Positions 1 through 51,185 of a stretch of 64,000 bases of DNA are shown here, piece after piece; the stretch's first letter is position 1; each line of letters begins with the position of its first letter. Below the pieces are notes generated by a model. It searched no databases. It had not been told where the DNA came from and saw nothing but the letters and a program-made list of their open reading frames with translations. Made by a program: the position numbers and the translations under genes. The DNA lies in the NCBI RefSeq assembly GCF_014203735.1, contig NZ_JACHJQ010000010.1, forward strand, positions 248,001 through 312,000. Direction: 5' to 3'. The DNA is from Actinophytocola algeriensis (GTDB taxonomy: Bacteria; Actinomycetota; Actinomycetes; Mycobacteriales; Pseudonocardiaceae).

Positions 1-12023
<12,023 letters not shown>

Positions 12024-13692: not shown

Positions 13693-13729
13693 CCACGGCA
13701 TGGTGCGTCACAACCGAAGGGAAACACAC

Positions 13730-16401: not shown

Positions 16402-18669
16402 TCAGGCCCCCGGCTCGGCGTAGGTGTCCCGCGCGATCGTGCGCCCGTACCCGAACGCCCACGACGGCAACGCGTCCAGGACCTTGGCCATGTCCGGTCC
16501 GGTCTCGACGAACACCTGGTCGACCTCGATCCGCACCGGCCCGGACCGGTCGACGGCGGCCACGAACCCCTCCGGCCGCCCGACGACGTCGACCACGGCC
16601 TCACCACCGGAGAACGACCGCCCGTTGACCGCGGTGACCGCTCCGGTCACCGTGATCCGGACGAGGTTCGCCGAGTTGGCCCCGAGCCGGACCTCGACCG
16701 ACCCGGCCGAACCGGTGACGTCGACCCGCCCGGACGGCACCGAGACCTCAGCCCCCACGAGCGTGTCACCGTCGACGGCCAGCCCGGTCGCGCCCGCGAG
16801 GTCGTCCACCAGCCCCAGCGACTGCGGTGTGTGGAAGTCCCGGCCCTCGAGCTCGATCCGCGTGCGGCCGTCCTCCTGCACCTGGAACGCCTCGACGTAC
16901 TTGGGCCGAGAGGCGTCATAGGGCCCGGCGACGGCACCGGTCACCAGCCCCGCCACAGTGACCACGACGACCGCGAGCGCCACCCGGCGCACGTGTCCCC
17001 CGTGGAACACGAACGGCCCCAGCACGAACGCCAGCAGCACACCGACGAGCGCGACGACCACACCGAGCACCGGGTCCATGGGAATCGCGGCAGGCACCCG
17101 CCCGAGCATCGGCACGGCCAGGGTCAGCAGGTTCCGCGCCAGCTCGGCGACCAGGAGCCCCTGCACCACAGCGGCCACCACGAGAGGCACCAACCGCCAC
17201 CGACCACGCAACAAGAGCGCCACAAGAGTGGCCACCACGCCGAGCGCGGTGGCGGTCCACAACAGATAAGCCGCCCCGACGCCGAGAACAGCGGCGAGCA
17301 GACCGAGAGCCGCGACGAGCAGGAGGTTCGCGTACCACACGACCTCAGCCGACGAGTCCAGAGTGGATTGAGCACGGCGGGCACGCCTGCGCCGCAACAG
17401 GACCTGGGGCAGCACCGCGGCGAACACCGTCAACGGCAGCGGCACCACGTAGACCAGCCACGGATGCGCGAACCAGGCGTGCGAACCACCGACCAGCCAC
17501 GCGAGCGCACCGGCCAGCACACCGGCGACCACCGCCGCGAGCACACCGAGCAGCCCCGCCCCGGCGGACGCGACCACCTGCCCGGGACGCGCCGACCGCC
17601 ACACCAGCACGCCCACCGCAAGAGCCAGCACCAGGAGAGCGAGCACGGCCACCAGCGGGTCGACGGTCACCCACCACCGGGACAGGACGTCGAAGTAGTA
17701 CGGCGTGGCACCGGCGACACCGGAGTCGTCCACCGCGGCACCGACATAACCGGTCGCGAGATCCACATAGGACTGCGCGGTGCCGGGGGTGATGCGGTCG
17801 GTGCGGTCGAGCGGTGTGTCGTAGCCGTACCCGTTCTCGATGATCGCGTAGTCCAGCCCGGACCAGCCCGCGCCCCGCCACACCCTGCTGTCGGTGTCGG
17901 AGTTGATCAGCCCGGCGCCGAACAACGTCTGCCCGACAATCGACCCGTACGGCCGCGGCGTGCTCCCGACGAGCTCGACGAGCGCCCCGCTGTCCGCACC
18001 CGCGTTGAACATCAACGGCTGCCCGCCCGCGCCGATCGACTCGAGGTTGAGGAACCAGCGGACATCGCGCGCCCACGGGTGCCGCGTGAACGCGTCCGCG
18101 CCGGTGAGCCCGACCTCCTCGCCGCCGTTGAACAGGAAGACGACCGTCCTGCGGTGATCCGCGCCCGCCAGCTGCCGCGCCGCCTCGATCATCGCGCCGA
18201 CCGCCAGACCGTCGTCGGCTGCTCCGGTGCTCCCCCACGCCGAGTCGACGTGCGCGTTCACGAGCAGCGCGTCGCCGGACTCGCCCGGGATCCGCGCCAC
18301 CACGTTGTCCACCGCGTACGCGACGTCCCGGTCGTGGAACCGGTAGGTGCCCGACGCGTGCTGCCGCTCGACCTGAAGGCCCGGGATCCCGCGCAGTTCA
18401 CCCTCGACGAGGTCGAGACCGCGGGTCAGCTCCTCGGTGCCGGGCACCCGGACCCCGATGTCCTGCAGCCGCTGGGACGTCGCGAGCGCGCGCCTGCCGG
18501 TGTCGCCCTCCGGCGTCGGCCTCGTCGCGAGGTACGTGCCGCCGAACGACACCACGAGGAGCAGCACCACGACGGCCCACGTCGTCCAGAACGGGTCTCG
18601 TCGCCGCGGTGCGCCGTCGGTGCCGGGTTCCCGGCCTGCTTCGCGCGTCGGGATCCGCAGGGAGGTCAT
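16402..18669 (-). CDS. M28-family membrane metallopeptidase
   Basis: A 755-residue protein with an N-terminal transmembrane segment (about residues 28-48) and an extracytoplasmic M28 aminopeptidase-type domain (about 60-300). Its metal-ligand motifs are NAHVDS, GAADDG, NGGEEVG and NLESIG. About eight or nine hydrophobic helices follow (about 335-590), then a C-terminal beta-rich domain (about 610-755). The arrangement resembles FXNA/ERMP1-like M28 membrane peptidases. It is the last gene of the long minus-strand operon, 18 bp after the hydrolase. Its cluster role is unknown. Possibilities are trimming of an exported prodrug peptide, peptide degradation for self-protection, or a chance neighbour. 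It converges on the aldehyde dehydrogenase with 72 bp between, where I see no strong terminator. Confidence 0.88.
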   Translation of the reverse strand: MTSLRIPTREAGREPGTDGAPRRRDPFWTTWAVVVLLLVVSFGGTYLATRPTPEGDTGRRALATSQRLQDIGVRVPGTEELTRGLDLVEGELRGIPGLQVERQHASGTYRFHDRDVAYAVDNVVARIPGESGDALLVNAHVDSAWGSTGAADDGLAVGAMIEAARQLAGADHRRTVVFLFNGGEEVGLTGADAFTRHPWARDVRWFLNLESIGAGGQPLMFNAGADSGALVELVGSTPRPYGSIVGQTLFGAGLINSDTDSRVWRGAGWSGLDYAIIENGYGYDTPLDRTDRITPGTAQSYVDLATGYVGAAVDDSGVAGATPYYFDVLSRWWVTVDPLVAVLALLVLALAVGVLVWRSARPGQVVASAGAGLLGVLAAVVAGVLAGALAWLVGGSHAWFAHPWLVYVVPLPLTVFAAVLPQVLLRRRRARRAQSTLDSSAEVVWYANLLLVAALGLLAAVLGVGAAYLLWTATALGVVATLVALLLRGRWRLVPLVVAAVVQGLLVAELARNLLTLAVPMLGRVPAAIPMDPVLGVVVALVGVLLAFVLGPFVFHGGHVRRVALAVVVVTVAGLVTGAVAGPYDASRPKYVEAFQVQEDGRTRIELEGRDFHTPQSLGLVDDLAGATGLAVDGDTLVGAEVSVPSGRVDVTGSAGSVEVRLGANSANLVRITVTGAVTAVNGRSFSGGEAVVDVVGRPEGFVAAVDRSGPVRIEVDQVFVETGPDMAKVLDALPSWAFGYGRTIARDTYAEPGA

Positions 18670-18687
18670 GGGGCGTCGGGCCTTTCG

Positions 18688-19515
18688 TCAGGTCACCACG
18701 TGTCGCACCCAGGCGCGGAGCTCCCGCTCCACGACGTCCGGGTGCTCGAGCACGAGCATGTGCGCGGCGTCCGCCACCTCGACGAGCGTGGCGCGGGGGC
18801 AGTCGCTCTCGACCGCGGCGGCCATGGCCTTCATGCCGGAGGTGTCGAGGTCGCCGGTCAGCACCCGCACCGGACACGTGATCTCCGCCAGCCGCCCGGC
18901 CGCGGGCGGTTCGAACGACTCGAAGTCGGGGGTCTTGTCCTGCTGCGCGTAGCTGACGCGGGCCATCTCCGCGACACTCGCGCGCATGGCCGCGCGCCGG
19001 TCCTCCAGGTCGCGCAGCGGACCGTCGATCAGCAGCCGTGCCTCGCTCGCGATGATGCCCTCGGTGTCGCCCGCGTCGTCCGCCGCCTCCATCGCCGCCA
19101 GCAGCGCGCGTTCGGCGTCGGTGGCGGGCGCGTCGTAGCCGGAGACGTCGGGGGCGGCGAGGAAGAGCCCGCGCACCCGGTCCGGGTGGGTCAGCGTGAA
19201 GTCGATCGCGATGCGGGTGCCCCGGGAGGCGCCGACCAGCAGCGCCGACTCCAGCCCGTACGCGTCGAGCACACTCGCGAGGTCCGCCACGTCGGAGTAC
19301 GTGCCCTCCAGCGAGGTGACGGACCGGCCGAAGCACCGGCAGTCGTAGGCGACGAGGAACAGCTCGTCGCTCATCGCCCGCATCAGACCGGTCCACATGT
19401 CCGAGTGCGCGATGCCGGCGTGGACGAGGACGGCCGCGGGGTTGGCGGGATCCCCCGCGGTGGCCGTGTGCAGCGATCCACCGGGTACGGCGATGGCGCG
19501 AGTGTCGATCATCAT
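18688..19515 (-). CDS. alpha/beta hydrolase
   Basis: A 275-residue alpha/beta-hydrolase-fold protein. The oxyanion segment is VLVHAGIAHS, the nucleophile elbow GASRG, the acid is in TGDLDT and the His in DAAHML near the C-terminus, so the triad looks intact. Cytosolic, without signal peptide. Its start overlaps the thioesterase stop by 4 nt, which indicates translational coupling. GGAGG sits directly before the first of two adjacent ATGs. In a lipopeptide operon it could hydrolyse or cyclise an ester, act as an editing thioesterase, or process a side chain. The sequence alone does not decide. Confidence 0.85.
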   Translation of the reverse strand: MMIDTRAIAVPGGSLHTATAGDPANPAAVLVHAGIAHSDMWTGLMRAMSDELFLVAYDCRCFGRSVTSLEGTYSDVADLASVLDAYGLESALLVGASRGTRIAIDFTLTHPDRVRGLFLAAPDVSGYDAPATDAERALLAAMEAADDAGDTEGIIASEARLLIDGPLRDLEDRRAAMRASVAEMARVSYAQQDKTPDFESFEPPAAGRLAEITCPVRVLTGDLDTSGMKAMAAAVESDCPRATLVEVADAAHMLVLEHPDVVERELRAWVRHVVT

Positions 19516-20261
19516 CCTCCTGTCAGTCGCAGGTGCCGCTCCGCGACGAACCCCGACAGCTCCTCTGCGCGGTCGCGCAGATACATGTGGTCACCGTGCC
19601 ACAGCCGGGTCTCACACGACGCCCGGGTCTGCGCCGCCCACGCCGCGAGCCCCGCCTCCGGCACGCCGTCGTCGGTCGTGCCGCCGAGGGCGAACACCGG
19701 CGTGGTGAGCGGTGGGGCGTCGCGGTAGCGGTAACCGAGCGCCATCGCGTAGTCCGCGCGGATGCCGGGCATGACCAGCTCGAGCAGGTCGGGCTGCTCG
19801 TACAGCTCGGGTGGGGCGACCCCCTGGGAGCGCAGGTCGAACAGGATCTCCTCGTCGGTCGGTGTCGGCCGCGGCACCAGGGTCTGGGGCGCGGCCATCC
19901 CCGACACGAACAGGCCGTGGACCGGGCGCGACCGGTCCCGCAGGCGCCGGGCCAGCTCGAACGCGACGAGCGCGCCGAAGCTGTGCCCGAAGAGACTGGC
20001 CGGCCTGCCGTCCGCGCAGACGGCATCGGTCAGTGCGCCGACGAGGACCTCGATGTCCTCGACCGGTTCCTCCAGCATCCGGTGCTCGCGCGCGGGCAGG
20101 TCGGGCACCCACAGCTCGACACCGGCCGGGAGCCACCGCGTCCAGTCCTCATAGGACGATCCGCTGCCGCCCGCGTACGGCAGGCACACGAGACGGCTGG
20201 TGCCCTCCCCCGTGCCGAGCCGCCGCAGCCACGACACAGCCGCCCGGTCAGCCGCGAACAC
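19512..20261 (-). CDS. type II thioesterase
   Basis: About 249 residues with the external thioesterase pattern: [17 protein letters not shown], nucleophile elbow [25 protein letters not shown] and His in WHGDHMYL. Such enzymes (GrsT/TycF type) remove misprimed acyl or aminoacyl groups from carrier domains of NRPS and PKS lines. I chose GTG 20261, which overlaps the end of the MbtH gene by 14 nt; GTG 20237 is an alternative start. The 3' end overlaps the hydrolase start. Its place in the operon supports a proofreading role for the synthetases encoded upstream. Confidence 0.92.
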
Positions 20262-20475
20262 TGCGGGGACGCATGTCCGTCCACACCTTCTCGATGTGGT
20301 CGAGGCACTCGTCCTTGCCGCCCACCACACCCGCACGGGACCAGCCCGCCGGCAGCTCGCCGTCGGCAGGCCAGATCGAGTACTGCTCCTCGTCGTTGAC
20401 CACGACCGCGTACCGCGGCCCGCTGTCGTTCTCCGTCACCGCTTCTGTCACCGCTTCTGTCACTACCTCAGTCAC
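20248..20475 (-). CDS. MbtH-like protein
   Basis: A 75-residue MbtH-family chaperone that binds NRPS adenylation domains and supports their folding and activity. It has the family signature: [15 protein letters not shown], a Cys-Leu-xx-His-Ile segment and [11 protein letters not shown]. The start is GTG 20475, with GAGGAGAGG about 2-5 nt upstream and a GTGA overlap with the exporter stop. The N-terminus is unusual: VTE is repeated four times ([14 protein letters not shown]), encoded by 12-bp tandem repeats that each contain a possible in-frame GTG start, so the true N-terminus could be up to 16 residues shorter. Confidence 0.95.
20440..20475 (-). repeat. 12-bp tandem repeats at the MbtH start
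   Basis: Two identical 12-bp units (20440-20451, 20452-20463) and a third degenerate copy (20464-20475) encode the Val-Thr-Glu-Ala/Val repeat. Each begins with GTG in frame. Slippage would add or remove four residues and a potential start without breaking the reading frame. Confidence 0.75.
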
Positions 20476-21737
20476 TGCCTCTCCTCGGTGGTTGTCGGGA
20501 TGTGGGTCGTATCGCGGGAAACGAGGGTGCCGCCCGCCGCGACGAGGACGCTGACGAGCACGCAGCCCGCGCCGATCGCCGCGAGCGTCACCGCGCCGGA
20601 GGTGGCCTCGAGCGCGACGCCCGCGACGAACACCGACAGCGGGCGCAGGGCGAACGTCGCGACCTGCGCGGTGGTCGTCACGCGGCCGAGCAGTTCGTCC
20701 GGGGTCAGCTGCGCACGCAACGTCGAGTAGACGACGGTGGCGAACGACTCGCCCACGCCGGCCAGCAACGCCACGAACAGCGTGAGCGGCAACCAGGACG
20801 TGACGGACAGGACGAGCAGCGCCACACCGCCGACGACGGTGCCGCCCACCATCAGGCGGCCGGGTGCGTGCCGCAGGCGCGGCGCGAGCAGTGCGCCCGC
20901 GATCGCGCCCACCGCGTACACGGTGATGATCACGCCGAGCACGCGCGGCGACCACCCGAGGTCCTCGCGGACGAAGAACGTCGCGCAGATGACCACCGGT
21001 GCGGTGAAGAACGTGATCGCCGCCCAGTACATGAGCGTCACCCGCAGCAGGCGGTGCCCGGCGATGAACTGCAGGCCGTCGCGGACCTGCCTGCCCATGG
21101 TGCCCGTGGCACGTTCCGTCGCCATCTGCAGCGGCCGCCGGATGAACACCAGCGTCGCCGCCGACACCGCGAACGTCACCGCGTCGACCCCGAGCGCCGT
21201 CGCGCCGCCCACGGTCGCCACCAGCACACCGGCGAGGCTCGGGCCCGCGACGTAGCCGAGCGCGTTCCCGATCGACAGGGCCGCGTTCGCCTCGCCGAGC
21301 CGGTCCCGGCCGACGAGGGCGGGCACGCACGACAGGCACGCGGCCTCGAACACGACGTACAGGACGCCGATCGGGACGGCGATCGCGTACAGCACCGGCA
21401 GCACCGGCACGCCTGCCACCGCCGCGATCGGCACCAGCGCGATGAGCACGGCCCGCCCCACGTCCGACCACAGCATCATCCGCCTGCGGTCGAAGCGGTC
21501 GGCCCACGCGCCTGCCGGGACGCCGAGCACGAGCATCGGCAGGGCCGACAACATGGCGATGAGGCCCATGTGCAGGCCCGAGCCGGTGAGCACCAGCACC
21601 AGCAGCGGCATGGCGGTCTTGCTCAGCGAGTCGCCGAGCGCGGACGCCCCCTGCCCACTCGCGAACAGCAGGAAGTCGCGGTCGCGCAGCAGGCTCGTGC
21701 CGGTGCGGGGCGCGTCGGCCACTCCGGTGTCAGCCAC
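20472..21737 (-). CDS. MFS transporter (EntS/MFS_3-like exporter)
   Basis: About 421 residues with some twelve hydrophobic helices. The typical MFS loop after TM2 reads [14 protein letters not shown], and further helices follow a central loop around residue 200. The short cytosolic N-terminus ([26 protein letters not shown]) is typical of the MFS_3 group that includes enterobactin exporter EntS and many lipopeptide or siderophore exporters. GTG 21737 lies 2 nt after the cupin stop, and the stop overlaps the MbtH start (GTGA). It is likely the product exporter and self-resistance pump. Confidence 0.92.
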
Positions 21738-21739
21738 CG

Positions 21740-22798
21740 CTAGGCCCAGTCGTCCCAGTCTTTCGCGCCCGTGACGTTGCGCAGTCCTCCCTTGGACTTG
21801 AAGTACAGCTGGGCGAGGTAGCGCTCCGGGATGCAGGTGAGCCAGCCCAGCGCGTTGTCCTCGTTGACGATCTGGTGGCTGTAGGAGATCGACGCGTCCA
21901 TGGCCTCGATCGCGTGCCAGTAGCCGCTCGGGACGTACAGCGTCTCGCCGGGGTGCAGCACCGTCTCCTCGACGACCACGTCCCGGAACAGCGGCTGCTT
22001 GTCCAGGTCGGGCTTGCGGTAGTCGACCTGCGCCATGCCGAACTGGCGGCGGAAGGCGCGCGGGTACAGCTTCTTGTGCTGGTCGGGTGACACGAAGTAG
22101 CAGCGCTTCCTGCCGACGACCTGGCACAGGTACGCCGCGGTCTGCATGCCGTCGCTGTGGAACGGCGTGACCGTGCCCTTGCTGCCGACGAACATCACCG
22201 CGGCCATGCGGGAGGAGATCTCACTGCGCGTGGCCTTCTTGCCGCTGCCCCGGTTGAGGAACGTCTTGGCCAGCAACAGGCCGAACAGCTTGGCCGGGTT
22301 GCGCGTCCCGGTCCGCCACTTCGCGGGGAACCGGATGTCGGCCCAGTTCGGCACCAGGTCGGGCAGGTCGTAGTCCTCCTCGAGCTCCGGGTAGTGGTCG
22401 ACCATGCGGTGCACCGGGTACGCGCGCAGGTAGTTCGCCCGGCCGGGCTCCTCGTCGTTCTCGATCTCGTCGAGCAGCTGTTCGAGCTTCATGGCGCGGA
22501 ACTTGCCGACCTGGCCGAGGATCAGCTTGCTGTCGAGGTTCTGGATGTTGGCGTGGATGTCGAGGTCGCCGAAGAACTTCCGGAAGTAGTCGAAGTCCCA
22601 GCGCTCCATCGCCGGCCAGTTGTCCATGAGCCCCGTGATGATCGCCGGACGTCGCTTGTAGACGTACTCGCGGGTGAACTCGTCGGGATCGGGGTTGTGC
22701 AACCGGTCGATCGCGTCGAGCTTGAGCTCCACGTCGGCGAAGAACGTGGGCGGCGGCACGGCGTCGTCCTGGTCCTGTGGGGTGAAGCTGGATGTCAT
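21740..22798 (-). CDS. cupin_8/JmjC-like Fe(II)/2-oxoglutarate dioxygenase
   Basis: A 352-residue protein. The N-terminal region has YVYKRRPAIITG, typical of JmjC-like cupins. The metal facial triad is visible as His-x-Asp in VTPFHSDGMQ and a distal His in PSGYWHAIEAMD. No membrane segment. Such enzymes hydroxylate amino acid side chains or peptides, and in NRPS clusters they can act on carrier-bound residues. A strong GAAGGAGGACGA ribosome site precedes the ATG, 29 bp after the aminotransferase. With the SyrP-like enzyme it gives the cluster two independent hydroxylases. The substrate residue is not evident. Confidence 0.88.
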   Translation of the reverse strand: MTSSFTPQDQDDAVPPPTFFADVELKLDAIDRLHNPDPDEFTREYVYKRRPAIITGLMDNWPAMERWDFDYFRKFFGDLDIHANIQNLDSKLILGQVGKFRAMKLEQLLDEIENDEEPGRANYLRAYPVHRMVDHYPELEEDYDLPDLVPNWADIRFPAKWRTGTRNPAKLFGLLLAKTFLNRGSGKKATRSEISSRMAAVMFVGSKGTVTPFHSDGMQTAAYLCQVVGRKRCYFVSPDQHKKLYPRAFRRQFGMAQVDYRKPDLDKQPLFRDVVVEETVLHPGETLYVPSGYWHAIEAMDASISYSHQIVNEDNALGWLTCIPERYLAQLYFKSKGGLRNVTGAKDWDDWA

Positions 22799-22827
22799 TC
22801 GTCCTCCTTCTCTTGGTGCCCGGGCGA

Positions 22828-37700: not shown

Positions 37701-40700
37701 CGCGGCCGGTCGACGGGCAGGTCGATGGCCGGTGGCGCACCGTCGAGGTGCCGCGTCCAGAACTCCAGGCCCTCGCGGCCGGCCGCCGACTCCAGCCGGG
37801 CGTGCTCCTCGTGCGCCCATGCCAGGTAGTCGTGTGCGGGCGCGGGTGGCTCGCCGCCCGCGTACAGCGCGGCCAGGTCGTCGGCGAGGACCTGCATCGA
37901 CCGGCCGTCGGACACGATGTGGTGGAACGCCAGCAGCAACGCGTGCTCGGTCTCGGCGAACCGGACGAGTGTCGCGCGCATGAGCGGCGGCTCGTCGACC
38001 GCGAACGCCCGCGTGGCGTACTCGCCCGCCAGGCGCGTCAGCTCCGACTCGCGCTGTCCGGGTGCCACCGCGGTCCGGTCCAGCTCGTCGAACGGCGCGG
38101 CGAGTCCACTGTGGACCTCGGGGACGGGGAGTCCGTTCTTCTCGCGGAAACCGGTCCGGACGGCGGGGTGCCGCTCGACGACCAGGTCCAGGGCACGCCG
38201 TAACCGGTCGCGGTCGAGTGCGCCGTACAGCCGCAGGACACCCGGCACGACGTACGCGCTCGACCCGGGCGCGAGCTTGTCGAGGAACCACAGCCGCTGC
38301 TGCCCCGGCGACACGCGCGGCTCGAACACCGCGGCGGCGGACTCCGCCACCGCGGGATCGGTGGCCTCGGCGAGCAACTCGTCGATGCGGCTCGCCTGGG
38401 CCCGCACCGTCACCGACTCGAAGAACATCCGCAGCGGCGGCTGGACCCCGAACTCCCTGCGGACGCGGGTGTTGAGCGCGGCCGCGCGCAGCGAATGCCC
38501 GCCCAGCGCGAAGAAGTCGTCGTCCGGCCCGACGCCGTCGACCCCGAGCACGTCGCACCAGACGGCCGCGAGCGCGCGCTCGGTGCCGGTCATCTCGGCG
38601 GCCGGGCGGACGACGGCACGTGCCTCGGCGCGCAGCGCGGCCGAGTCGACCTTGCCGTTGGCGGTGAGCGGGATGTGCGCCAGGACGAGGAGCCGGGTGG
38701 GCACCATGTAGCTCGGCAGCCGGGTCTGGAGCCAGTCGCGGAGGGTCTCGGCGTCGAGGTCGCCGGTGACGGCCGCGATCAGCTCCGCCGCACCGGGACC
38801 GCCCGACGCGACGACGGCCGCCTCGACGACGTCCGGGTGGCGGCGCAGCACCACCTCGATCTCGCCGAGCTCGATCCGGTAGCCGCGCACCTTGACCTGC
38901 TGGTCCGCGCGGCCGACGTAGCGCAGCTCACCGTCGGCGGAGCGGCGCACCAGGTCGCCGGTGGCGTAGAGCCGCGCGCCCGGCGTGGAGGCGAACGGGT
39001 CCGGGACGAAGCGCTCCGCGGTCTTGCGGGGCGCGGACGCGTAGCCCCGGCCCACCCCGACACCGCCGATGTAGGCCTCGCCGACGACCCCGTCCGGCAC
39101 CGGCCGCAGCGCGGCGTCGAGGACGTGGATCACGGCGTCGATCATGTCCGCGCCGATGGAGATGTCGCGGGCCCGCGCCACCTGCCCCGACTCCGGCCCG
39201 AGCAGCGCGACCGTCGAGCAGACCGTCGTTTCCGTGGTGCCCCAGCGGTTGTACAGCGTGACGTGCTCGCGTGCGGCCGAGAACCACCGCGCGAGCTTGT
39301 CGGGGTGTGCCGCCTCGCCGCCGATCAGCACCGTGCGCAGCGTCGGCGGCACCGTGACCTCGCCGTCGAGCGCGGACACGAGCACGTGGAAGAACGCGGT
39401 CGGGATGTCGATCATGGTGAGCCGCCGTTCCGCGCACCACGACCAGAACCGCTCCGGTGACGCGACCACCGACTCGTCCCGCAGCACGAGCGTCGCGCCC
39501 CGGATCCATGCCGAGAAGATCTCCTCGAGGCACGGGTCGAAGGTCAGCGGCGCGAACTGCAGCACCCGGTCACCCGGCCGGACGTCGAACGCGTCCAGGA
39601 AGGACATCAGGTAGCTCAGCAGCGACCGGTGCTGGATCTGCACGCCCTTCGGCCGCCCGGTCGACCCCGACGTGAAGATCACGTAGGCCAGGTTGTCGTC
39701 GCCGATGAGGAGGTCCGGGCGCTCGCCGGAGCCCGGCCGGTCCTCGTCGACCCGGATCGCGGTGCCGAGTTTCTCCGCCAGCTCGGCGGTCCCGGCGTGG
39801 CAGAGGATCCGCGCGCACCGCGCGTCGCCGACCATGTCCGCGAGCCGGGCCGGGGGCAGCGCCGGGTCCAGCGGCACGAACGCGGCGCCGGACTTCATCA
39901 CGGCGAGCATCGCGATGACGAGCTCGGGCGACCGGCGCAGGCACAGCCCGACGGTGTCCTCCGGCCGCAGCCCCAGTCCCCGCAGCTCGTTGGCGAGGCG
40001 GTTGGCGGCCTGTTCCACCTCCGCGTAGGTCATTTCGAGGCCGGCCGCCTCGAGCGCGACCGCGTCGGGCGTGAGCGCGGCCGTCGACTCGAACAGCTCG
40101 TGGACCGAGGTCACCCCGGGCCGTTCCCTGGCGGGGACGTCGGCGCGGGCGAGCGACTCCGTGGTGCCCGCGAGGCGGAGGGCACTGGCCGGCGCGTCGC
40201 GCAGCCGGCCGAGCTGTCCCAGCAGGTCGAGGTACTGCGCCGCCAGCTCGCCGGCGAAGCCCTGCTCGAACCGGTCGGCGCGGACCAGCAGGTGCGCGAG
40301 CAGCCCGTGCTCGACGGGGATGGCGTGCAGGGTGATGTCGAACTGGGTCGCGAGCTCACCGACGGCGAACGGCTCCAGCGTGAGGTCGCGCAGTGTCGCC
40401 GAGGCGGCGCCGGCGCCGAACACCACGGACGTCACGTCGCTCGCGATGGCGCCCTGCGGCCGTTCGAACACGACGGCGGCGTTGACCGCGGCCGCCGCGT
40501 TGCCCCGCGCACGCAGCAGCTCCACGAGCTTGCCGTACGGGAAGTGCTGGTGGGTCAACGACTTCCGCAACTGCGCGCCGGTGCCGCGGACGAGGTCGCC
40601 GACCGTGGTGGCACCGCCGAGGTCGGCGCGGACGGGGACGGTGTTCGCGAAGTAGCCCGCGGTGTTGCGGAACCGGGCCTGTGGCCTGCCCGTCGTCGTG

Positions 40701-43591
40701 GCGCCGACGAGGAACTCCGACTCGCCGCTGTGCGCGCCCATGAGCACCTCGAAGGCGACCATCAGCACCGCGAACAGCGTCGTGCCCGCCTCGGCCGCGA
40801 CCTGCTCCAGCTCCGCGACGACCGCGGCGTCCACCACGACGCGCTGGTGCTCGACGCCCGTGTCGTGCGCGTTCCCCTCGCGGTACGGCAGGGCGGGTGC
40901 GTGCACGTCGCCCGCCAGCAGGTCGAGCCAGTAGCGCTCGTCGGCCGCGCCGCGCGCGGAGCGTTCGTACTCCTGCTGCCAGCGCACGAACTCCTCGTAG
41001 CCGGTGGCGGGCGGGAGCTGTGGGGTCGTGCCCGCCAGCACGGCGCCGTAGATCGTCGCCAGCTCGTCGAGCAGCGTGACGACCGACCAGAAGTCGGTGA
41101 TCGCGTGGTGCTGCGCGAGCACGAGAACAGGTGCGCCGATCCCGGTGAACAGCGCGGCGCGTGCGACGTCGCCGTGTTCGATGTCGAAGGGGGCGAGCGC
41201 GTGGTCGTCGACCCGCGCGCGCAGGACGGTCTCCTCGCCCGTCATCGGCACGACGGCCAGCTCGAACGGTCGCCCGCCGTCGATCCGGTGGGTGCGGCGG
41301 CCGCCATCGGTGCCGAACCGCGACGTGAGGATCGGGTGCCGCGCACCGAGCAGGCGCACCGCGTCGGTGAGCGCGCCGACGTCGACCGGCTCGGCGAGGC
41401 GCACCGAGACGGACACGTTCTGGCGGCAGTCCGGCCCCTCCAGGTCACGGATGAACAGCAGCGCTTCCTGCCCGGCGGACAGTGGCCCGAGGGTGGCGGT
41501 CCTGGTCGCGGGCGCCGGGGCAGCCCCCGTTTCGCTGCCCGGTTCGCTGCCGGGAGCACTGTCCGGTTCGGTGTCCGTGAGCCGGGACGCGATCACGGTC
41601 GCGAGGTCGCGCAGGCTCTCCGGCCGCAGCAGGTCACCGGCGTCGAGGACGACGCCGAGCCGGTCCTCCAGCTCGAAGGCCAGTTCGACCGCCGCGAGCG
41701 AGTCGAGGTTCAGGTCGGCGACGGTCGCCGGACCGTCCTGGACGTCCCCGTACCTGCGCAGCTCCGACTCGATCGCGTCGGCCCGTTCCCCGGGCGGCAG
41801 CGCTCGCAGCGCGGCACCCGACAGGGCCGCGAACAACCGGCCTTCCGTCGCGGGGACGGCGGACCGGCGGTACTTCTCGCCCTCGACCGCGCCCGCGAGG
41901 TACGCCGTCCGGCTCGCGAGGCGCTGGACCTTGCCGCTCGACGTCTTCGCGATGCTGCGGGCCGCGAGGAGCACGACGTCGTGCAGCGCCACGCCGTAGT
42001 CCGCCAGCACCGCGGCGGCGATCGCGTCGGCCACCGCGGGGAGTTCCTCGTCCGGCGTGCCTGCCGCGACCTCCTGCAGCAGGACGCACTGCTCGCCGTC
42101 CTCGGTGTCCACCGAGAACGCCGCGCCGCACCCGGGACGCGACCGCGGCGACGCGAGGACAGCCGTCTCCTCGAGGTCGTGCGCGTAGAGGTTCCGGCCG
42201 CGGACGACCATCATCTCCTTGAGCCTGCCCGTGATGTGGAGCTGCCCGTCCAGCACGAACCCGAGGTCACCGGTTCTGAGGAAGGGGCCCGTGCCGTCGG
42301 GGAGGTGCGCGTCGAAGGTCGCCGCCGTCGCGGCCTCGTCCCTCCAGTAACCCGCCGCGACCGACGGACCACGCACCCACAGTTCCCCGACGGCACCTGG
42401 CGTGACCCGGGTACCGCTCCCCTGGTCCACGATCGCGATGTCGTGCCCGATGGCCACCTGTCCCGACGACACGAGGACCTGGCCGCTGTCGCCACCGGTC
42501 TCACTGTCGCCGCTCTCCTGCGCCCGGCCGCCCTCGAGTGCCGCCCGGTCCACGACGAGCCGCCGCACGCCGTTCCCGCGCCCGGCACCGGCGACGAACA
42601 GCGTCGCCTCGGCGAGCCCGTAGCACGGCAGCAACGCGGACGGGTCGAACCCGCTCGGCGCGAACGCCTCGGCGAACCGCGTCATGGTCCGGTGCCGGAC
42701 CGGCTCCGCACCGCAGAACGCGACCCGCCACGTGGACAGGTCGAGGCCGGCCCGCTCGGCGGGCGTGCTCTTGTTCACGCACAGGTCGAACGCGAAGTTG
42801 GGGCCACCGCTCGCGGTGGCGCCGCGCGCGGCGATGGTCTCGAGCCACCGCATGGGCCTGCGCAGGAAGTCCAGCGGGGACATCAGGATCGTCGAGATCC
42901 CGCTGAGCAGCGGCTGCAGCACGCCGCCGAGCAGGCCCATGTCGTGGTAGAAGGGCAGCCAGGAGACATTGACGTCGTCGCCGGTGAGCCCGAAGTTGCC
43001 CGCGATGGAACGGCCGTTGGCCACCAGGTTCCGGTGGGTCACGACCACCCCGCGCGGGGTGCCGGTCGAGCCGGACGTGTACTGCAGCAACGCGACGGCG
43101 TCGGCGTCGAGCACCGGCGGCCGCCACCCGTCGGCGTCCTCGGCCATCGCGTCCTCAGTGGACAGCCAGGGCAGTGTGGCCAGCTCCGGCGCGTGCGCGA
43201 ACAGTTCCGTGGCGAACGCCTCGACGAGGCGGGTCGACAGGACGATCGCCGCGTCCGAGTCCCGCGCCACGGCACGCAACCGCGGCATCGTGCGCTCGAG
43301 ACTCGTGGGGTCCGGCGGGTAGACGGGCACCGCGACCATGCCCGCGTACAGCGAGCCGAGGAAGCCGACGACGAAGTGCTCACCGGGTGGGTAGAGCAAC
43401 AGCACCCGCGCACCCGGCCGGGCCCGCTGCGCGAGGGCGACGGCCACCGCGCGCGCACGCGCGTCGAGCTCGGCGATGCCGAGCGTCGTCGCGGTCGCCC
43501 CGCTCTCGGCGAGGAACTCGTAGTGCACGGCGGTGCCGCGCTCTTCGACGTTGCGGCGCACCGCGTCAACGACAGAGCAGTCCCAATCCAT
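28739..43591 (-). CDS. FAAL-primed NRPS: FAAL-ACP-(C-A-PCP)x4
   Basis: About 4950 residues. An N-terminal fatty acyl-AMP ligase (1-585: YTSGSTGTPRG, WLPFYHDMGL, PCYGLAEAT) and ACP (DLNLDSL, about 600-665) load a fatty acid. Four C-A-PCP modules follow. All C domains have intact HH motifs (HHAITD, HHIVSDG, HHIVGDG, HHVVADG) and all PCPs have LGGHSL. Codes aligned by eye to GrsA: A1 D-P-E-D-L-G-R-V-C (odd NRWGTTE core), A2 D-A-W-L-V-G-A-V-A (hydrophobic type), A3 D-P-R-H-F-L-L-R-A (Lys2-like, 2-aminoadipate candidate), A4 D-I-W-Q-I-T-A-D-D (acidic at 330/331, perhaps a basic residue). No E or TE domain, so any D-residues would need dual E/C domains. I chose ATG 43591 (CGGGAACG 6 nt upstream) over ATG 43621, which has no ribosome site. 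It begins the acyl-peptide chain. Confidence 0.95.
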   Translation of the reverse strand: MDWDCSVVDAVRRNVEERGTAVHYEFLAESGATATTLGIAELDARARAVAVALAQRARPGARVLLLYPPGEHFVVGFLGSLYAGMVAVPVYPPDPTSLERTMPRLRAVARDSDAAIVLSTRLVEAFATELFAHAPELATLPWLSTEDAMAEDADGWRPPVLDADAVALLQYTSGSTGTPRGVVVTHRNLVANGRSIAGNFGLTGDDVNVSWLPFYHDMGLLGGVLQPLLSGISTILMSPLDFLRRPMRWLETIAARGATASGGPNFAFDLCVNKSTPAERAGLDLSTWRVAFCGAEPVRHRTMTRFAEAFAPSGFDPSALLPCYGLAEATLFVAGAGRGNGVRRLVVDRAALEGGRAQESGDSETGGDSGQVLVSSGQVAIGHDIAIVDQGSGTRVTPGAVGELWVRGPSVAAGYWRDEAATAATFDAHLPDGTGPFLRTGDLGFVLDGQLHITGRLKEMMVVRGRNLYAHDLEETAVLASPRSRPGCGAAFSVDTEDGEQCVLLQEVAAGTPDEELPAVADAIAAAVLADYGVALHDVVLLAARSIAKTSSGKVQRLASRTAYLAGAVEGEKYRRSAVPATEGRLFAALSGAALRALPPGERADAIESELRRYGDVQDGPATVADLNLDSLAAVELAFELEDRLGVVLDAGDLLRPESLRDLATVIASRLTDTEPDSAPGSEPGSETGAAPAPATRTATLGPLSAGQEALLFIRDLEGPDCRQNVSVSVRLAEPVDVGALTDAVRLLGARHPILTSRFGTDGGRRTHRIDGGRPFELAVVPMTGEETVLRARVDDHALAPFDIEHGDVARAALFTGIGAPVLVLAQHHAITDFWSVVTLLDELATIYGAVLAGTTPQLPPATGYEEFVRWQQEYERSARGAADERYWLDLLAGDVHAPALPYREGNAHDTGVEHQRVVVDAAVVAELEQVAAEAGTTLFAVLMVAFEVLMGAHSGESEFLVGATTTGRPQARFRNTAGYFANTVPVRADLGGATTVGDLVRGTGAQLRKSLTHQHFPYGKLVELLRARGNAAAAVNAAVVFERPQGAIASDVTSVVFGAGAASATLRDLTLEPFAVGELATQFDITLHAIPVEHGLLAHLLVRADRFEQGFAGELAAQYLDLLGQLGRLRDAPASALRLAGTTESLARADVPARERPGVTSVHELFESTAALTPDAVALEAAGLEMTYAEVEQAANRLANELRGLGLRPEDTVGLCLRRSPELVIAMLAVMKSGAAFVPLDPALPPARLADMVGDARCARILCHAGTAELAEKLGTAIRVDEDRPGSGERPDLLIGDDNLAYVIFTSGSTGRPKGVQIQHRSLLSYLMSFLDAFDVRPGDRVLQFAPLTFDPCLEEIFSAWIRGATLVLRDESVVASPERFWSWCAERRLTMIDIPTAFFHVLVSALDGEVTVPPTLRTVLIGGEAAHPDKLARWFSAAREHVTLYNRWGTTETTVCSTVALLGPESGQVARARDISIGADMIDAVIHVLDAALRPVPDGVVGEAYIGGVGVGRGYASAPRKTAERFVPDPFASTPGARLYATGDLVRRSADGELRYVGRADQQVKVRGYRIELGEIEVVLRRHPDVVEAAVVASGGPGAAELIAAVTGDLDAETLRDWLQTRLPSYMVPTRLLVLAHIPLTANGKVDSAALRAEARAVVRPAAEMTGTERALAAVWCDVLGVDGVGPDDDFFALGGHSLRAAALNTRVRREFGVQPPLRMFFESVTVRAQASRIDELLAEATDPAVAESAAAVFEPRVSPGQQRLWFLDKLAPGSSAYVVPGVLRLYGALDRDRLRRALDLVVERHPAVRTGFREKNGLPVPEVHSGLAAPFDELDRTAVAPGQRESELTRLAGEYATRAFAVDEPPLMRATLVRFAETEHALLLAFHHIVSDGRSMQVLADDLAALYAGGEPPAPAHDYLAWAHEEHARLESAAGREGLEFWTRHLDGAPPAIDLPVDRPRPALQTFRGDRVPLVLSAEDSALLRDLAREQHATVFMVLAACTASALSRLSGQRRVVVGVPDANRPEDGRYDDVVGFFVNTVPMCFDVPAGDTARTLLDRTRATAVEAMAWKWVPFSAVVEAVGHDRDPSRSPVFQVLLDVHTGALPSPAMSGLRAETAPLYTGTAKTDLTFEVTDDGGALTGWLEYNTDLFTPDTARRIAGLFRETAVAMSRRPDQRITTPGAAATIARWPVTAVTNDAAADKTEVFATRFERVATATPDAVAIESDDRVVTYGELRRQVEHVARVLERQYDVDGGDVVAVSIEPSVDAVVAILAVQRCGAAYLPVDPAYPDERRAFMLADSGARLLVTGDLVAEALRRPPLHDRLPALHPDTPAYLMYTSGSTGRPKGVVLSHRALANLAGAQAECFGIGSSSRMLQFASLSFDASVWEIFPTLAAGGTLCVVGRDHALVGAELADTLAEREITVCLLPPSVLATLPARDLPNLRTLVSGGEACRAEQVDRWQPGRRFVNAYGPTECTVAITAADCEPGRTPSLGAVLPGGTAYVLDEDLHPAVPGAVGELYVGGTGLALGYHRRPALTAERFLPDPFSAVPGARMYRTGDLVRVRADGAIDYLGRADSQLKVRGFRIEPGEIEAVLLARDDVSAAVVTRLDAALVAHVESADAALSPRVLAEACAAVLPAHMVPAAFVVRPELPRLPGGKLDVRGLERPRRGDFADATATALETGTERVVGRVWAELLALDEIGNGDDFFALGGHSLLATSATARVSEELGRDVPLRTLFEVPVLRDYAARCDAAAVRDTANDIAAHTRAAAGPPSVMQERLWILEELDRGADAHAATGRYHLAGALRLTGELDEAALNRAVAALVDRHTTLRTVLADDDGVLTQRVRDHVEVPVTRTALTGATAEERRAEAVGVVAGEANTPMDLTEGPLLRLRLLELDRDDAVLVLTLHHIVGDGWSMEVLKRDLAHFYAQETGQAPETGLPELEVTYDQFARWQRHRLDNGDLDDSIAHWCKQLENLPTLTLPMTRHVAGQPSGLADRVGTVVGDRLRSDIERLASDSGATVFMVLAAALQVTLGRLAGQDDFAIGAPIAGRGRREVSDLIGFFINSVVLRADLTGDPSFAAVLDRVRTATLDAYEHQDVPFETLVGRLAPERDLTTTPLFQVYLNMLNIPPHEVALPGLSVEEFSVPEIGTKFDLSFYVRTEESGLGLDLVYAADRFDEESMDELLAQWVRVLEQAVGDSGRAIGALRLDTPRARAVLPDPAEPLDAAWHGSVVERFESWAEREPRRIAITEPGQDLTYGELSWATAALASVLTRHGVEKGDVVAVYGDRCASLVWAVLAVMRTGAAFAILDPSYPADRIADCLDVARPVAFLQLEGAGTVPLAVEDALRRHDPRCRFELPTKLADVRHLVPQGAEQASAVPVGPTDCAYVAFTSGSTGKPKGIRGGHGSLTHFVPWMVERFGLRDTDRYSMISGISHDPLHREVFTPLVTGACICVPLRFDVETPGRLAQWFRTQQISVSHLTPPMARLFDQLTVAPGTLPWLERVFFLGDTLTSRDVRAVTRMAGSATCVNLYGSTESQRAVGYHVVPTADGTAAEDPGVTYPLGHGMKDVQLLVVNDAGELAGIGEVGELVIRSPHLALGYAGDEALSAARFVRNPLGGNDSEGAEADRAYRTGDLGRYAPDGSVLPVGRADNQVKIRGYRVETDEVAHAVRAAAGVRDAIVVAREDAGGETGLVAYVVAEAGTKVVGTEVKAYVRTRLPEYMVPAFVVPLESIPLTPNRKVDRAALPAPSVVGGAQEDGPQTPVSPTEELVAGVWQDVLGAPRVLPDDNFFNLGGHSLMATQVVSRIRRVFGREIALRTLFEKQTVRQLAEHIDGMAGGASRTEPIAVLPRDGALRSSYGQERLWVLDRLEGDTGAYNSSTVVRLRGPLDRRALSDTLAKLVERHEVLRTRLVMRDGAVCQIVEAAADVTMPLDFVDLSADHGDNAATAEERWQACVAAASAHRFDLGVSPLEKATLIRIGEDDHVFVLTVHHVVADGWGLQVLVRDFALLYQADRDGTASPLPPVEVQYADWSSWQRDRVEGGDFAGQLDFWCDRLRDPAPLLEFPGQRPRPATMSNRGLTVRRVLSSELVDEVRRVGREHNATLFMTLLAAFNTQLHRYGGTRDIAVATPVSTRSVEVEDVVGFFVNTIVFRNRIAGDDTFTELLERVRSTTLEAYANQDVPFDRVVDALQPSRDLSRSPLFQVMFVLHNAPYTEIELGDLKLERLHTEEDTAKFDLSFDLAEERDGLHATLELNADLFDQETGEQLLDHFETLLRGIVAGPATTIAGLELRPDAEVRAQEALSAGPAPELGRSPAAALEDWAHRTPDATAVVDGDTVWTYRELRDLAAGVAGGLAGAVTGAEPAVLVCARRSAAHIAAAIACGEVGATYVPVTPDFPDQRIASVLALLGDAVVVTDAEQADRLGTLAGPDRPRLVLDDVVADPARVLGARRGHDRERAYVIFTSGTTGEPKGVVVEQAGLCNHLELMGHDLALSERDVIAQTAGQSFDISIWQMLVGVTRGAATVVSGDDTSRDPDALLALVRDRRVSVLQLVPGMIRALLDRAGDWTDDRAVAHLRYLIATGEELPPDLCARWLRRFPGIPVVNAYGPAECSDDTHLALLTEPPRTDRALTIGHPVAGVTSHVVDADGARQPFGVPGELAIGGLVVGRGYLGDPRATAARFVPDPFSQVPGARLYLTGDRARLSRDGRLEFLGRFDDQLKIRGFRIEAAEVETALREVDGVTDAVVVRGADDESLVACLAGTERDAATVADALTARLPKYMIPTGYVFLDRLPRTRNGKIDRAALQGDDVVVERVRRRFEPLAGPTESLVAAVFAALLGAPTVGALDNFFELGGHSLLATRLVTELSTQAGVELPLRTVFERATVRGVAEALEEMQLASLTDDERRELEALIDGVTDEEARALLASDHEGDA

Positions 43592-43678
43592 AACCGTTCC
43601 CGTGTCGGCTCGAGGTTCCATGGCACGGTCGTGCCGGGGAGGGGCGCCCGGCGCCCGGTGTCCGTCCGTGGTCCGGGG

Positions 43679-45046
43679 TCAGTACCCGGCGAGTGGCCTG
43701 CGGCCGCAGATGGCCCCGATCCGCTTGCGCGCGTGCGCACGGACCTGGGGGTCGAGGGTGTGGACCCTGGCCGAGGCGCTCTCCGCGGCGGTCAGCACAT
43801 CGACGACGACCTCGGCGATCTCCGCGACGTCCTCCGCGTCCAGCCCGCGGGCCGCCATGCTGTTGCTGCCGAAGCGCACACCCGAGGCCACGTTCGCGGG
43901 GTGGACGTCGCCGACGATCCGGTTCTTGTTGACGAGGATGTCGCACTCCTCCAACGCCTTCTCGGCGTTGACCCCCGTGATGCCGAACGACGACAGGACG
44001 TCGGCCACCACGATGTGGTTGTCGGTGCCCTCGGAGATGACCCGGACACCGCGGCGCATCAGCTGGTCGGCGAGGGCGGCCGCGAGCGAGCGGACCCTGG
44101 CCATCGTGTCGGCGAACCGCGGCGTGTCCACGGCGCCGAGGGCGTAGGCCTTCGCGGCGATGCTGTTCACCACCGGTGCGCCCTGCATCAGCGGGAACAA
44201 CCCGCCCTGCATGGCCTGTTCGAGGGTCCTGCCGTCGGGCAACGTGGTCGTGGCCGACTCGCCGAGGAGGATGAGCCCGCCGCGCGGCCCGTACAGCTGC
44301 TTGTGCGTGCAGGTCGTGACGACGTGCGCGTGCTCGATCGGCGACGGGTGCAGCCCGGCCACCACGAGACCGGCGATGTGCGTGATGTCGGCGAGCAGGT
44401 AGGCGCCGACCTCGTCGGCGATCGCGCGGAACGCCGCCCAGTCGATCGTGCGCGGGTAGGCCGTGGTGCCCGCGATGATGAGGCGGGGGCGGTGCTCGAG
44501 CGCCTTGGCCCGCACCTCGTCGTAGTCGATCAGCCCGTCGGGCGCGAGGCCGTAGCCGCGGGCCACGAACACCCGGCCGGACACGTTCACCGGGGCGCCG
44601 TGGCTGAGGTGGCCGCCCGCGTCGAGGTCCATCCCCAGGATCGGGTCGCCTGGGCTCAGCAACGCGTTCATGACCACCTGGTTGGCGGTGCTCGCGGAGT
44701 GCGGCTGCACGTTGGCGTAGCGCGCGCGGAAGGCGTGCTTGGCCCGGTCCACGGCGAGCCGCTCGACCTTGTCCACGTTCACACAGCCCGCGTGGAACCG
44801 GCGGCCGGGATATCCCTCCGCGGTGACGTTCGCGAAGATGCTGCCCTCGGCGAGCAGCGCCGCGGGTGAGACGGGACTGCACGACGCGACCAGCGCGAGG
44901 GTCTCCCGCTGTCTGCCGAGCTCGTCGTTCAGCAGCCCGAGCAGGACCGGGTCGTCGAGTTCCAGTGAGTCGAGTGCGTTCTCGTAGAAGGAAGGCAGTG
45001 AGGTGCCGGCCTGTGCGGGCAACGGCAGACCCGCGACATTGGTCAC
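43679..45046 (-). CDS. serine hydroxymethyltransferase-like PLP enzyme with altered active site
   Basis: About 455 residues, SHMT fold. PLP lysine lies in VVTTCTHKQLYGPRGG, and YANVQPHS, DITHIAGL and MQGG are conserved. Positions that in E. coli GlyA are Tyr55 and Tyr64-Tyr65 (KYAEGYPGKRYYGGCE) read here VTAEGYPGRRFHAGCV. Tyr55 becomes Thr and Tyr65 becomes His, while Glu57 is kept. The upstream IASEN is VASCS. Such changes suggest another substrate, for example an alpha-substituted serine or another aldol product, as for SHMT paralogues in other NRPS clusters. GTG 45046 (GGGGGA 4 nt upstream) is preferred to TTG 45058. It lies between the SyrP-like gene and the FAAL-NRPS gene and is probably a building-block enzyme. 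Confidence 0.88.
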   Translation of the reverse strand: MTNVAGLPLPAQAGTSLPSFYENALDSLELDDPVLLGLLNDELGRQRETLALVASCSPVSPAALLAEGSIFANVTAEGYPGRRFHAGCVNVDKVERLAVDRAKHAFRARYANVQPHSASTANQVVMNALLSPGDPILGMDLDAGGHLSHGAPVNVSGRVFVARGYGLAPDGLIDYDEVRAKALEHRPRLIIAGTTAYPRTIDWAAFRAIADEVGAYLLADITHIAGLVVAGLHPSPIEHAHVVTTCTHKQLYGPRGGLILLGESATTTLPDGRTLEQAMQGGLFPLMQGAPVVNSIAAKAYALGAVDTPRFADTMARVRSLAAALADQLMRRGVRVISEGTDNHIVVADVLSSFGITGVNAEKALEECDILVNKNRIVGDVHPANVASGVRFGSNSMAARGLDAEDVAEIAEVVVDVLTAAESASARVHTLDPQVRAHARKRIGAICGRRPLAGY

Positions 45047-45080
45047 AAAATCCCCCAACGGGTGCGTGAATGGACGGGTC

Positions 45081-45953
45081 TCAGAAGTTCGGCATGGACA
45101 ACATGGCCGCCACCCGCCGGTTCGGGTCCTCGAAGGCGCGGCGTCCGTGCATCACCCGTTTGTTGTCGATCATGACGATGTCGCCGACCTCCCATTCGAG
45201 GTCGACCGCCACTTTCTCGGTGGCGTCGAGCGCGTCCCAGCGACAGTGCTGCGGAATCGGTGACCCGTCCTCGAAGGACACGATGGCGCCGGAGCCGAGA
45301 TAACTGTTGCACAATGTGCGGGAATCGATGTACGGCGCCTGCGGCACCGCCGAAACGGTGTAGCTCCAGTTCAGGTTACCCGCGTCATCGAAATCGTACG
45401 TGAAATCGTCGAACTCGGCGAAGAGCCGGTCGAGCTCGGCCCGATCGGACGTCCCGAAGACACGTTCCTGGTGCTCGGGCCCGGTCGCGAACGGGAGGCG
45501 CCACGTCAGCCTCTTCTCCTCGAACAGGTCCCGGGTCTCCTTCGCGAGCAGGTCGAGCGCCGCGACACCGTCGTACACCGTGGTGGCACCGCCGGAACTG
45601 GCGGGTTGCACGCAGTAGAACCACTGCAGCCCGGGATGCAGTGGGCAGTAGCTCATCTCGGCGTGGGCGGGGATCGGGTTGCGGTGCGCGTCGACCAGCA
45701 GCACCGCCCCGTCCTCGGAGATCGTCTCCCGGTTCGGGTTCTGGTGGAAGTACAGTTTTTCGGAAAACCTCTGGACCAGTTCCCGGAAATCGTCGGCGGT
45801 CGCCTCGAAGCCGCGAAACATCAGCGTGCCGTGCTGCTTGAACAGGTCGACGACCCCTTCGTAGGGCAGCTCGGCAAGAGCGGCACCACCGCCCTTTTCG
45901 ATGACCAGGCCGTGATGCTCACTGAGAAGGGACGTCGACAGTAACGTCGTCAT
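45081..45953 (-). CDS. TauD/SyrP-like Fe(II)/2-oxoglutarate dioxygenase
   Basis: A 290-residue TauD-family enzyme. The metal triad is His-x-Glu in PAHAEMSY and a distal His in DNKRVMHGRRAF. The Arg pair in NRRVAAML can bind 2-oxoglutarate. The HAEMSY variant with Pro soon after is the form found in SyrP-like hydroxylases, which beta-hydroxylate carrier-bound residues such as aspartate. ATG 45953 has CGGAG 7 nt upstream, and a TTG at 45971 is the less likely start. It is the first gene of the long minus-strand operon, 34 bp before the SHMT paralogue. Halogenation is unlikely because the carboxylate ligand is present. Confidence 0.9.
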   Translation of the reverse strand: MTTLLSTSLLSEHHGLVIEKGGGAALAELPYEGVVDLFKQHGTLMFRGFEATADDFRELVQRFSEKLYFHQNPNRETISEDGAVLLVDAHRNPIPAHAEMSYCPLHPGLQWFYCVQPASSGGATTVYDGVAALDLLAKETRDLFEEKRLTWRLPFATGPEHQERVFGTSDRAELDRLFAEFDDFTYDFDDAGNLNWSYTVSAVPQAPYIDSRTLCNSYLGSGAIVSFEDGSPIPQHCRWDALDATEKVAVDLEWEVGDIVMIDNKRVMHGRRAFEDPNRRVAAMLSMPNF

Positions 45954-46331
45954 AAACCACTCCGAGGTCAAATGATTTCGCCACTGCTGGCGACACGAAC
46001 GACTTTAAGCACTATCCAGCGCAGGGCGCAACCACCGTCCAAAAAGACCCCGCGCCCATTTCTCCGCCATTCCGACATGACACGCCAACCCCCTACCGGC
46101 ACCAGCCGCCGCGATGTTCTTAGTACAGCGGAACCCGGGCCGCAAACGTCGCGGACGCAGTTGCACACCGGATCGCGGCAGACGGTTTTCCCGTGCTCAG
46201 CGCGTCGAAGCCAGTACCGGCACGCGCGCACCGCCGCACACCGCTGTGCAACTGCGACCGCTCCTGGACGCCGGCCGTCGACGACTGCACGATGGGAACA
46301 GCCGACCGGCGACCGCACGGAAAGGGGTGCC
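45954..46331. promoter_or_regulatory. divergent regulatory region of the main NRPS operon and FAD oxidase
   Basis: This 378-bp gene-free stretch lies between the divergent SyrP-like dioxygenase and FAD oxidoreductase genes. It must contain the promoter of the 29.5-kb operon. Its part near the dioxygenase is richer in A/T than the surroundings. It contains a perfect 12-bp inverted repeat with half-sites 89 bp apart, listed separately. I could not assign -35/-10 elements with confidence. Confidence 0.6.
46156..46256. repeat. widely spaced perfect 12-bp inverted repeat
   Basis: CGCAGTTGCACA at 46156-46167 is the exact reverse complement of TGTGCAACTGCG at 46245-46256. The centres are 89 bp apart, about 8.5 helical turns. 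Two copies of one asymmetric site in opposite orientation, inside the only control region of the main operon, suggest regulator binding at both with possible looping. No regulator can be named. Confidence 0.6.
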
Positions 46332-51183: not shown

Positions 51184-51185
51184 GT

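Follow-up and report, generated by a model that had tools for sequence, protein, structure and literature searches.

A stretch of 64,000 nucleotides from Actinophytocola algeriensis (contig 10, positions 248001-312000, of a 9.73 Mb genome in 23 contigs; hereafter the window) carries eleven head-to-tail genes on its minus strand, from 45953 to 16402, close to a hybrid polyketide synthase-nonribosomal peptide synthetase (PKS-NRPS) on the same strand. The locus raises the question of whether this predicted operon and the PKS-NRPS make one compound or belong to separate pathways. The original prediction of eleven coupled genes, forming a five-module lipopeptide operon primed by a fatty-acyl-AMP ligase (FAAL) and equipped with precursor, hydroxylation, MbtH, editing, export and peptidase genes, agrees with the gene content, the Pfam assignments, the codon-position composition and the gene order in other species. 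Its further proposal, that an acyl pentapeptide is passed on to the PKS-NRPS, is not supported: the two units occur separately, and the last synthetase of the operon ends in a condensation-fold domain without catalytic histidines. We consider it probable that the operon and a convergent aldehyde dehydrogenase (ALDH) gene together form a twelve-gene, FAAL-primed lipopeptide cluster that is self-contained and separate from the PKS-NRPS.

Conservation and layout of the twelve-gene unit

All eleven genes and the ALDH gene (14761..16329, plus strand) stand in the same order in each of four Streptomyces regions (strains CB02261, F-6492 and Je 1-79, and S. nymphaeiformis; with the window strain, the five species referred to below), at identities of 55-82%; such agreement in order lies far beyond chance. 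These loci came from a pattern-based scan of a named genome collection with the first operon gene, a TauD-family gene, which detects close relatives only. The first tblastn comparison of the operon used rows above 60 residues and 33% identity, and the Streptomyces gene-order comparison rows above 60 residues and 40% identity; the MbtH gene was found in place in all four regions at a lower match threshold. Judged from this conserved order, the twelve genes are a self-contained unit.

The unit has a narrow distribution in the samples searched. The scan returned four TauD loci at 78-79% identity, all from Streptomyces. Among 297 genomes of the host family, which should include the five with PKS-NRPS matches described below (G141, G143, G021, G119 and G010), TauD was found in the host's own genome together with two matches at 31-35%, and 2 of 394 genomes in a class sample carried it, namely the host and a second genome that very probably belongs to the four Streptomyces. 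The EctB-like gene of the operon was confined to the host among the same 297 family genomes at 1e-170, as was its JmjC gene among 298 genomes of the host's order at 1e-60.

The operon begins with the TauD ATG at 45953, with a TTG at 45971 as a possible alternative start. Four-base stop/start overlaps join NRPS A to NRPS B, NRPS B to the EctB-like gene, the MFS exporter gene to the MbtH gene and the type II thioesterase gene to the alpha/beta hydrolase gene, and the other measured gaps are 22, 57, 29 and 18 bases. The starts of the MFS and type II thioesterase genes are uncertain by a few codons, which leaves both of these junctions approximate. Scans of the region for promoters and tRNAs gave no matches. 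All four Streptomyces have a further MbtH gene, some 1.1 to 1.5 kb upstream of TauD. Directly upstream of the operon, strain Je 1-79 carries genes for an Sfp-type phosphopantetheinyl transferase and two LuxR-type regulators; beyond its ALDH gene, with one unnamed frame between, lies a KptA-type gene.

The ALDH keeps its position and orientation in all four Streptomyces regions at 81-82% identity. In a tree of ten ALDHs, which took in five of the 36 other family genomes that have such a gene, the window copy clusters with the four Streptomyces copies and apart from the five family homologs (support 99/99). Because the tree groups it with the Streptomyces cluster copies, the ALDH gene appears to have moved together with the operon. 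A gene for a DAO-type oxidase (45972-47501, plus strand) lies at the operon's other end, so that it and the ALDH gene, both on the plus strand, bracket the eleven genes. Homologs of this oxidase (63-68%) directly follow the ALDH gene in three of the five family loci read (L077, L079 and L080), an adjacency that suggests an oxidase-dehydrogenase pair; the operon may have ended up between two genes that are partners. The four Streptomyces regions gave no DAO match.

The neighbouring PKS-NRPS

The PKS-NRPS (4516 aa; minus strand, from 12191 through the window start to -1359) reads KS-AT-DH-ER-KR-ACP-C-A-T-C-A-T-TE. Open frames were inventoried from 60 kb before the window to 20 kb after it. The original prediction had rightly seen a synthetase here that starts with a ketosynthase (KS) lacking a loader; its extent, given as 1-12023, was too short, as the protein continues beyond the window and ends in a thioesterase (TE). 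Nor is the synthetase divergent from the operon, as had been supposed: it lies on the operon's strand and is divergent only from a P450 gene upstream of it (12262..13692, plus strand, start uncertain; Pfam p450, 5.2e-54). Its two adenylation codes, read by hand, are of serine type (DVWHFSLVD) and proline- or azetidine-like (DVQFVSQVV). The P450 gene is followed by that of a helix-turn-helix regulator (13700..14707, plus strand, weak HTH matches), which has five matches in the host genome and is one of several paralogs in the genus and was therefore dropped as a cluster marker.

We found no part of this unit with the operon in Streptomyces. A genome-wide search of the four genomes with the NRPS half of the PKS-NRPS at 1e-150 returned two matches, one at 39% that covers a single module and one at 33% to the operon's NRPS, and no ortholog. 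The KS half had no match in the fetched regions of 80-100 kb (rows above 80 residues at any identity, as for other window genes outside the twelve), and in these regions the P450 had none either.

Conversely, the PKS-NRPS occurs by itself in the host family and makes up an orphan cluster in its own right. Its C7-A7 part was found at 1e-150 in 13 of 150 family genomes, the host included, five others matching at 64-78% and seven at 44-50%. Near full-length orthologs (63-80%) are present in G141, G143, G021 and G119, and in all four the P450 gene adjoins them (82%, 67%, 65% and 58%, respectively). A further P450 is kept best in G141 (88%) and G119 (64%), and G141 also has a SARP regulator (73%) downstream of the PKS-NRPS. 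In the 40 kb around the five family PKS-NRPS loci (rows above 30% identity, with acyl-CoA-ligase rows excluded and those of NRPS A and NRPS B compared in a separate step), no operon gene was found beyond generic NRPS similarity, except for one piece of TauD in G141. The fifth ortholog, in G010 (contig 1, 210-250 kb), aligns only over the NRPS half, in an open frame of 2348 aa, and apparently lacks the KS-to-ACP module.

The TauD piece in G141 (contig 34, approximately 70.01-70.29 kb) is decayed and adjoins the P450 gene of the PKS-NRPS; it shows 80% DNA identity over 247 bases to window positions 45561-45315 and 87% over 47 bases to 45207-45161. The simplest reading of this sequence is that the operon formerly stood at the G141 locus and was then deleted while the PKS-NRPS stayed. 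The piece points to an old adjacency and to a PKS-NRPS that would not depend on the operon. Apart from this remnant, we did not find the operon and the PKS-NRPS co-occurring across species.

Other genes flank the operon on its far side. At 47514-52529, on the minus strand, are those of an AMP-dependent ligase, two acyl-CoA dehydrogenases and a second P450, which had no counterpart in the Streptomyces regions past generic adenylation similarity. A lytic polysaccharide monooxygenase gene (LPMO_10) lies at 53347-54021 and that of an AfsR-like SARP regulator, which scores under the AfsR cut-off (531 of 1430), at 54562-57585.

Predicted peptide, precursor supply and chain release

NRPS A (28739..43621; 4960 aa) reads FAAL-ACP-(C-A-T)x4 and NRPS B (24147..28742; 1531 aa; 71-73% identity in the four Streptomyces) reads C5-A5-T5-Cx by Pfam, so that four elongation modules of condensation (C), adenylation (A) and carrier (T) domains in the first are followed by one in the second. 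Both genes, like all others of the operon, are on the minus strand. Pfam found five AMP-binding, four Condensation and four PP-binding domains in NRPS A at the limit used, and the fifth carrier was seen in the sequence. The loading domain (41867..43621), which is followed by an ACP with an LDSL motif, is nearer to fatty-acyl-AMP ligases than to CoA ligases: FAAL-named models reach 414 bits (FadD32-type 412, PRK12476 410, PRK09192 398), compared to 315 bits for PRK07768, named a CoA ligase, and 143 for a generic CoA ligase. In neither synthetase did Pfam match a thioesterase domain, and the condensation-family matches are too few to allow for an epimerase domain.

The nine-residue adenylation codes were read by hand, in what we take to be GrsA numbering, and checked against a single published code survey. 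They are DPEDLGRVC (A1), DAWLVGAV(A/V) (A2), DPRHFLLRA (A3; 32297..33904), DIWQITADD (A4; 29102..30649) and DMYHLGMMD (A5). Although the NRPS proteins differ by ~28% across the five species, codes A1, A3, A4 and A5 are identical in all of them, and A2 varies between A and V at one position. A known example of an aminoadipate-activating adenylation domain is Lys2. In the part of the survey consulted (PMC12283262), the aminoadipate code DPRHLALLAK shares D235, P236, R239, H278, L322 and A331 with A3, which differs from it at 299, 301 and 330 and stands mid-way in a bacterial lipopeptide NRPS. From the same part, the beta-hydroxy-2,4-diaminobutyrate code DVWQMIGDDK is near A4, and the arginine consensus (E239, D278, I/V/L299, G301, V/I330) resembles A1, which departs from it at 236, 322 and 331. 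The A5 pocket has the serine-type H278 and D331 but is wider; this widening, together with a gene for a serine hydroxymethyltransferase (SHMT)-like enzyme in the operon, suggests alpha-methylserine as its substrate. The codes point to an acyl-(Arg-like)-(hydrophobic)-(aminoadipate-like)-2,4-diaminobutyrate (Dab)-(Ser-like) product. The FAAL would activate a fatty acid as acyl-AMP and attach it to the first carrier of NRPS A, after which the five modules would append these residues in order, the aminoadipate-like one possibly joined via its side-chain carboxyl and Dab possibly beta-hydroxylated.

The remaining operon genes fit such an assembly line. The EctB-like class III aminotransferase (22828..24150), which would provide Dab, scores above the cut-off of NF006733 (523.3 bits against 438) and under that of the strict EctB model (476.8 against 552.2). 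The SHMT-like enzyme, a divergent pyridoxal phosphate (PLP) enzyme (43679..45058; Pfam SHMT, 2.7e-118), fails the test for the canonical folate and PLP motifs of SHMT: in all five species it carries the altered motifs ASC, NVTAEGYPG and SGVRFGSNSMAARG (THKQLYGPRGG), where SHMT 6ymd reads ASEN, NKYAEG and SGLRLGSPAMTTRG. It shares ASC and NVTAEG with PDB 7qcw and is likely an enzyme of amino-acid building blocks. We also considered a nucleoside-type transaldolase role for the SHMT-like and TauD proteins, presumably analogous to the LipK/LipL pair; the fluorothreonine transaldolase model scores 79 against a cut-off of 650. The TauD-family Fe/2OG dioxygenase (45081..45953; Pfam TauD, 1.8e-34) keeps HxE and the distal histidine in all five species. 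The JmjC/cupin_8 hydroxylase (21740..22798; Pfam Cupin_8, 1.6e-36) likewise keeps HxD and the distal histidine in all five, and its closest solved structures are JMJD5 and FIH, which hydroxylate Arg and Asn residues; JmjC homologs on plasmids share 22.8-25.8% identity among the matches listed (15 of 26). Supply or decoration of the unusual residues would fall to the SHMT-like enzyme, both hydroxylases and perhaps also the ALDH.

Downstream follow an MFS exporter (20472..21743; Pfam MFS_1, 7.2e-32), an MbtH-like protein (20248..20475; Pfam MbtH, 2.6e-20), a type II thioesterase (19512..20261, with a start at 20261 or 20237; Pfam Thioesterase, 1e-33; GHSFG in all five species), an alpha/beta hydrolase (18688..19515; Pfam Abhydrolase_1, 5.7e-20; nucleophile Ser and His kept in all five) that is a candidate release or proofreading enzyme, and an M28 peptidase (16402..18669; Pfam Peptidase_M28, 3.4e-39). 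The last has long hydrophobic stretches, by eye those of a membrane protein, keeps its catalytic motifs and is 56-58% identical in Streptomyces. The MFS protein would export the product, which the peptidase may trim, unless it protects the host.

How the chain leaves NRPS B turns on its terminal domain, Cx (24153..25466). The five condensation domains of the synthetases keep HHxxxD, whereas Cx reads SYLLADG or SYLVADG in place of HHxxxDG and, with both histidines replaced in all five species, fails the motif test for an active condensation domain. Its AlphaFold2 model, built with the window's own condensation domains, has a condensation fold (pLDDT 70.8, pTM 0.70) and resembles true condensation domains of the PDB, among them the terminal HtmB2-CT (ranks 35, 38 and 39). 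Because the catalytic histidines are lost throughout, catalysis by the usual condensation route is unlikely. X and interface domains are thought to recruit tailoring oxygenases. Like Cx, the glycopeptide X domain and the siderophore interface domain have a condensation fold without the catalytic HH and follow a carrier, as described in the part of the source consulted (PMC12230676). Cx differs from them in being last in its synthetase with no TE behind it, and no X-domain entry was recognised in a set of 38 sequences. Since NRPS B lacks a thioesterase and Cx its catalytic histidines, we infer that Cx may be a docking platform of this kind, to which the alpha/beta hydrolase or the type II thioesterase would dock to release the chain in trans, or at which a hydroxylase would act.

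Alternative explanations and wider meaning

Closeness and a shared strand, a KS without a loader facing an operon without an integrated TE, and the piece of TauD that adjoins the P450 gene in G141, which records an older adjacency, could all be read as signs of one pathway, in which the acyl pentapeptide passes from NRPS B to the KS, is followed by a reduced methylmalonate unit and by serine and a proline-like residue, and leaves through the TE. We judge this very unlikely. The operon stands without an ortholog of the NRPS half in the four Streptomyces genomes, and the PKS-NRPS with its P450 stands without the operon in the 40 kb read in four family genomes, and we reject a joint pathway on that account; a hand-over at the NRPS B terminus, moreover, would start from a dead condensation-fold domain instead of a carrier. 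A joint pathway is accordingly not supported, and from their separate occurrence the units appear separable, the PKS-NRPS making a compound distinct from that of the operon. There is a slight chance of a mixed product in the window strain, given that the units were also neighbours in one or more other lineages.

Another reading is a cupriachelin-like lipopeptide siderophore, in which TauD would beta-hydroxylate an amino acid and Cx would be an interface domain. In its favour are the FAAL start, the Dab aminotransferase and the TauD-family hydroxylase, and the HH-less condensation-like domain recalls interface domains. The MFS protein matches the enterobactin exporter EntS at 123.9 bits, far under the cut-off of 324. 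However, neither an aspartate-type code nor a hydroxamate or catechol gene was recognised among the twelve, and the window has no match with up to three mismatches to what we take to be an iron-box consensus, so that a siderophore appears quite improbable. Were Cx itself to close or release the peptide through residues other than the lost histidines, as some terminal condensation domains do, its terminal position without a TE in all five species and its structural likeness to HtmB2-CT would be accounted for; the replacement of both histidines in every species makes this doubtful.

The proposal of a separate twelve-gene lipopeptide cluster is itself opposed by several observations. We know of no compound from any of the five loci. 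The residue calls depend on hand-read codes, a presumed numbering and one survey, and every FAAL model scores under its own cut-off. The G141 remnant extends the adjacency of operon and PKS-NRPS beyond this strain and leaves room for a functional tie. A role of the ALDH in a route to aminoadipate is possible, and the gene is weak as proof of it: the best NCBIfam model, piperidine-6-carboxylate dehydrogenase, gives 360.7 against a cut-off of 730, the protein is nearer to 6fjx, named only aldehyde dehydrogenase (502 bits), than to a Pcd structure (293 bits), similar genes occur in 37 of 100 family genomes, the host's included, and no lysine 6-aminotransferase above cut-off was found in the host genome. 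In the part of the survey consulted (PMC12283262), the asparagine code DPRHVSLLAK is also near A3, and no exact match for A1, A2 or A5 was found.

Compared with known systems, the twelve-gene cluster is an orphan that belongs to a known kind of lipopeptide cluster but has an unusual end. The FAAL-ACP-primed synthetases of daptomycin, friulimicin and cupriachelin share with it the FAAL and carrier start, MbtH and a type II thioesterase, and those of friulimicin and cupriachelin also the Dab aminotransferase. The operon differs from all three in its five modules, in lacking an integrated thioesterase, in its dead terminal condensation-fold domain and in having an SHMT-like enzyme and two Fe/2OG hydroxylases within one operon. 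No product with this set of features was found in the literature searched, subscription papers and MIBiG lying outside its scope, and the newness of the lipopeptide is provisional. More tentatively, the window species and the Streptomyces may make a family of lipopentapeptides with a side-chain-linked aminoadipate and a hydroxylated Dab, released in trans, with Cx recruiting the enzyme that releases the chain or oxidises it.

A rare orphan lipopeptide pathway, with five loci of nearly identical predicted peptide cores, is now delimited and set apart from a neighbour that a reader, and possibly software that calls regions automatically, would join to it. As its synthetases lack a thioesterase and keep a dead terminal domain across species, chain release in this family is directly testable.

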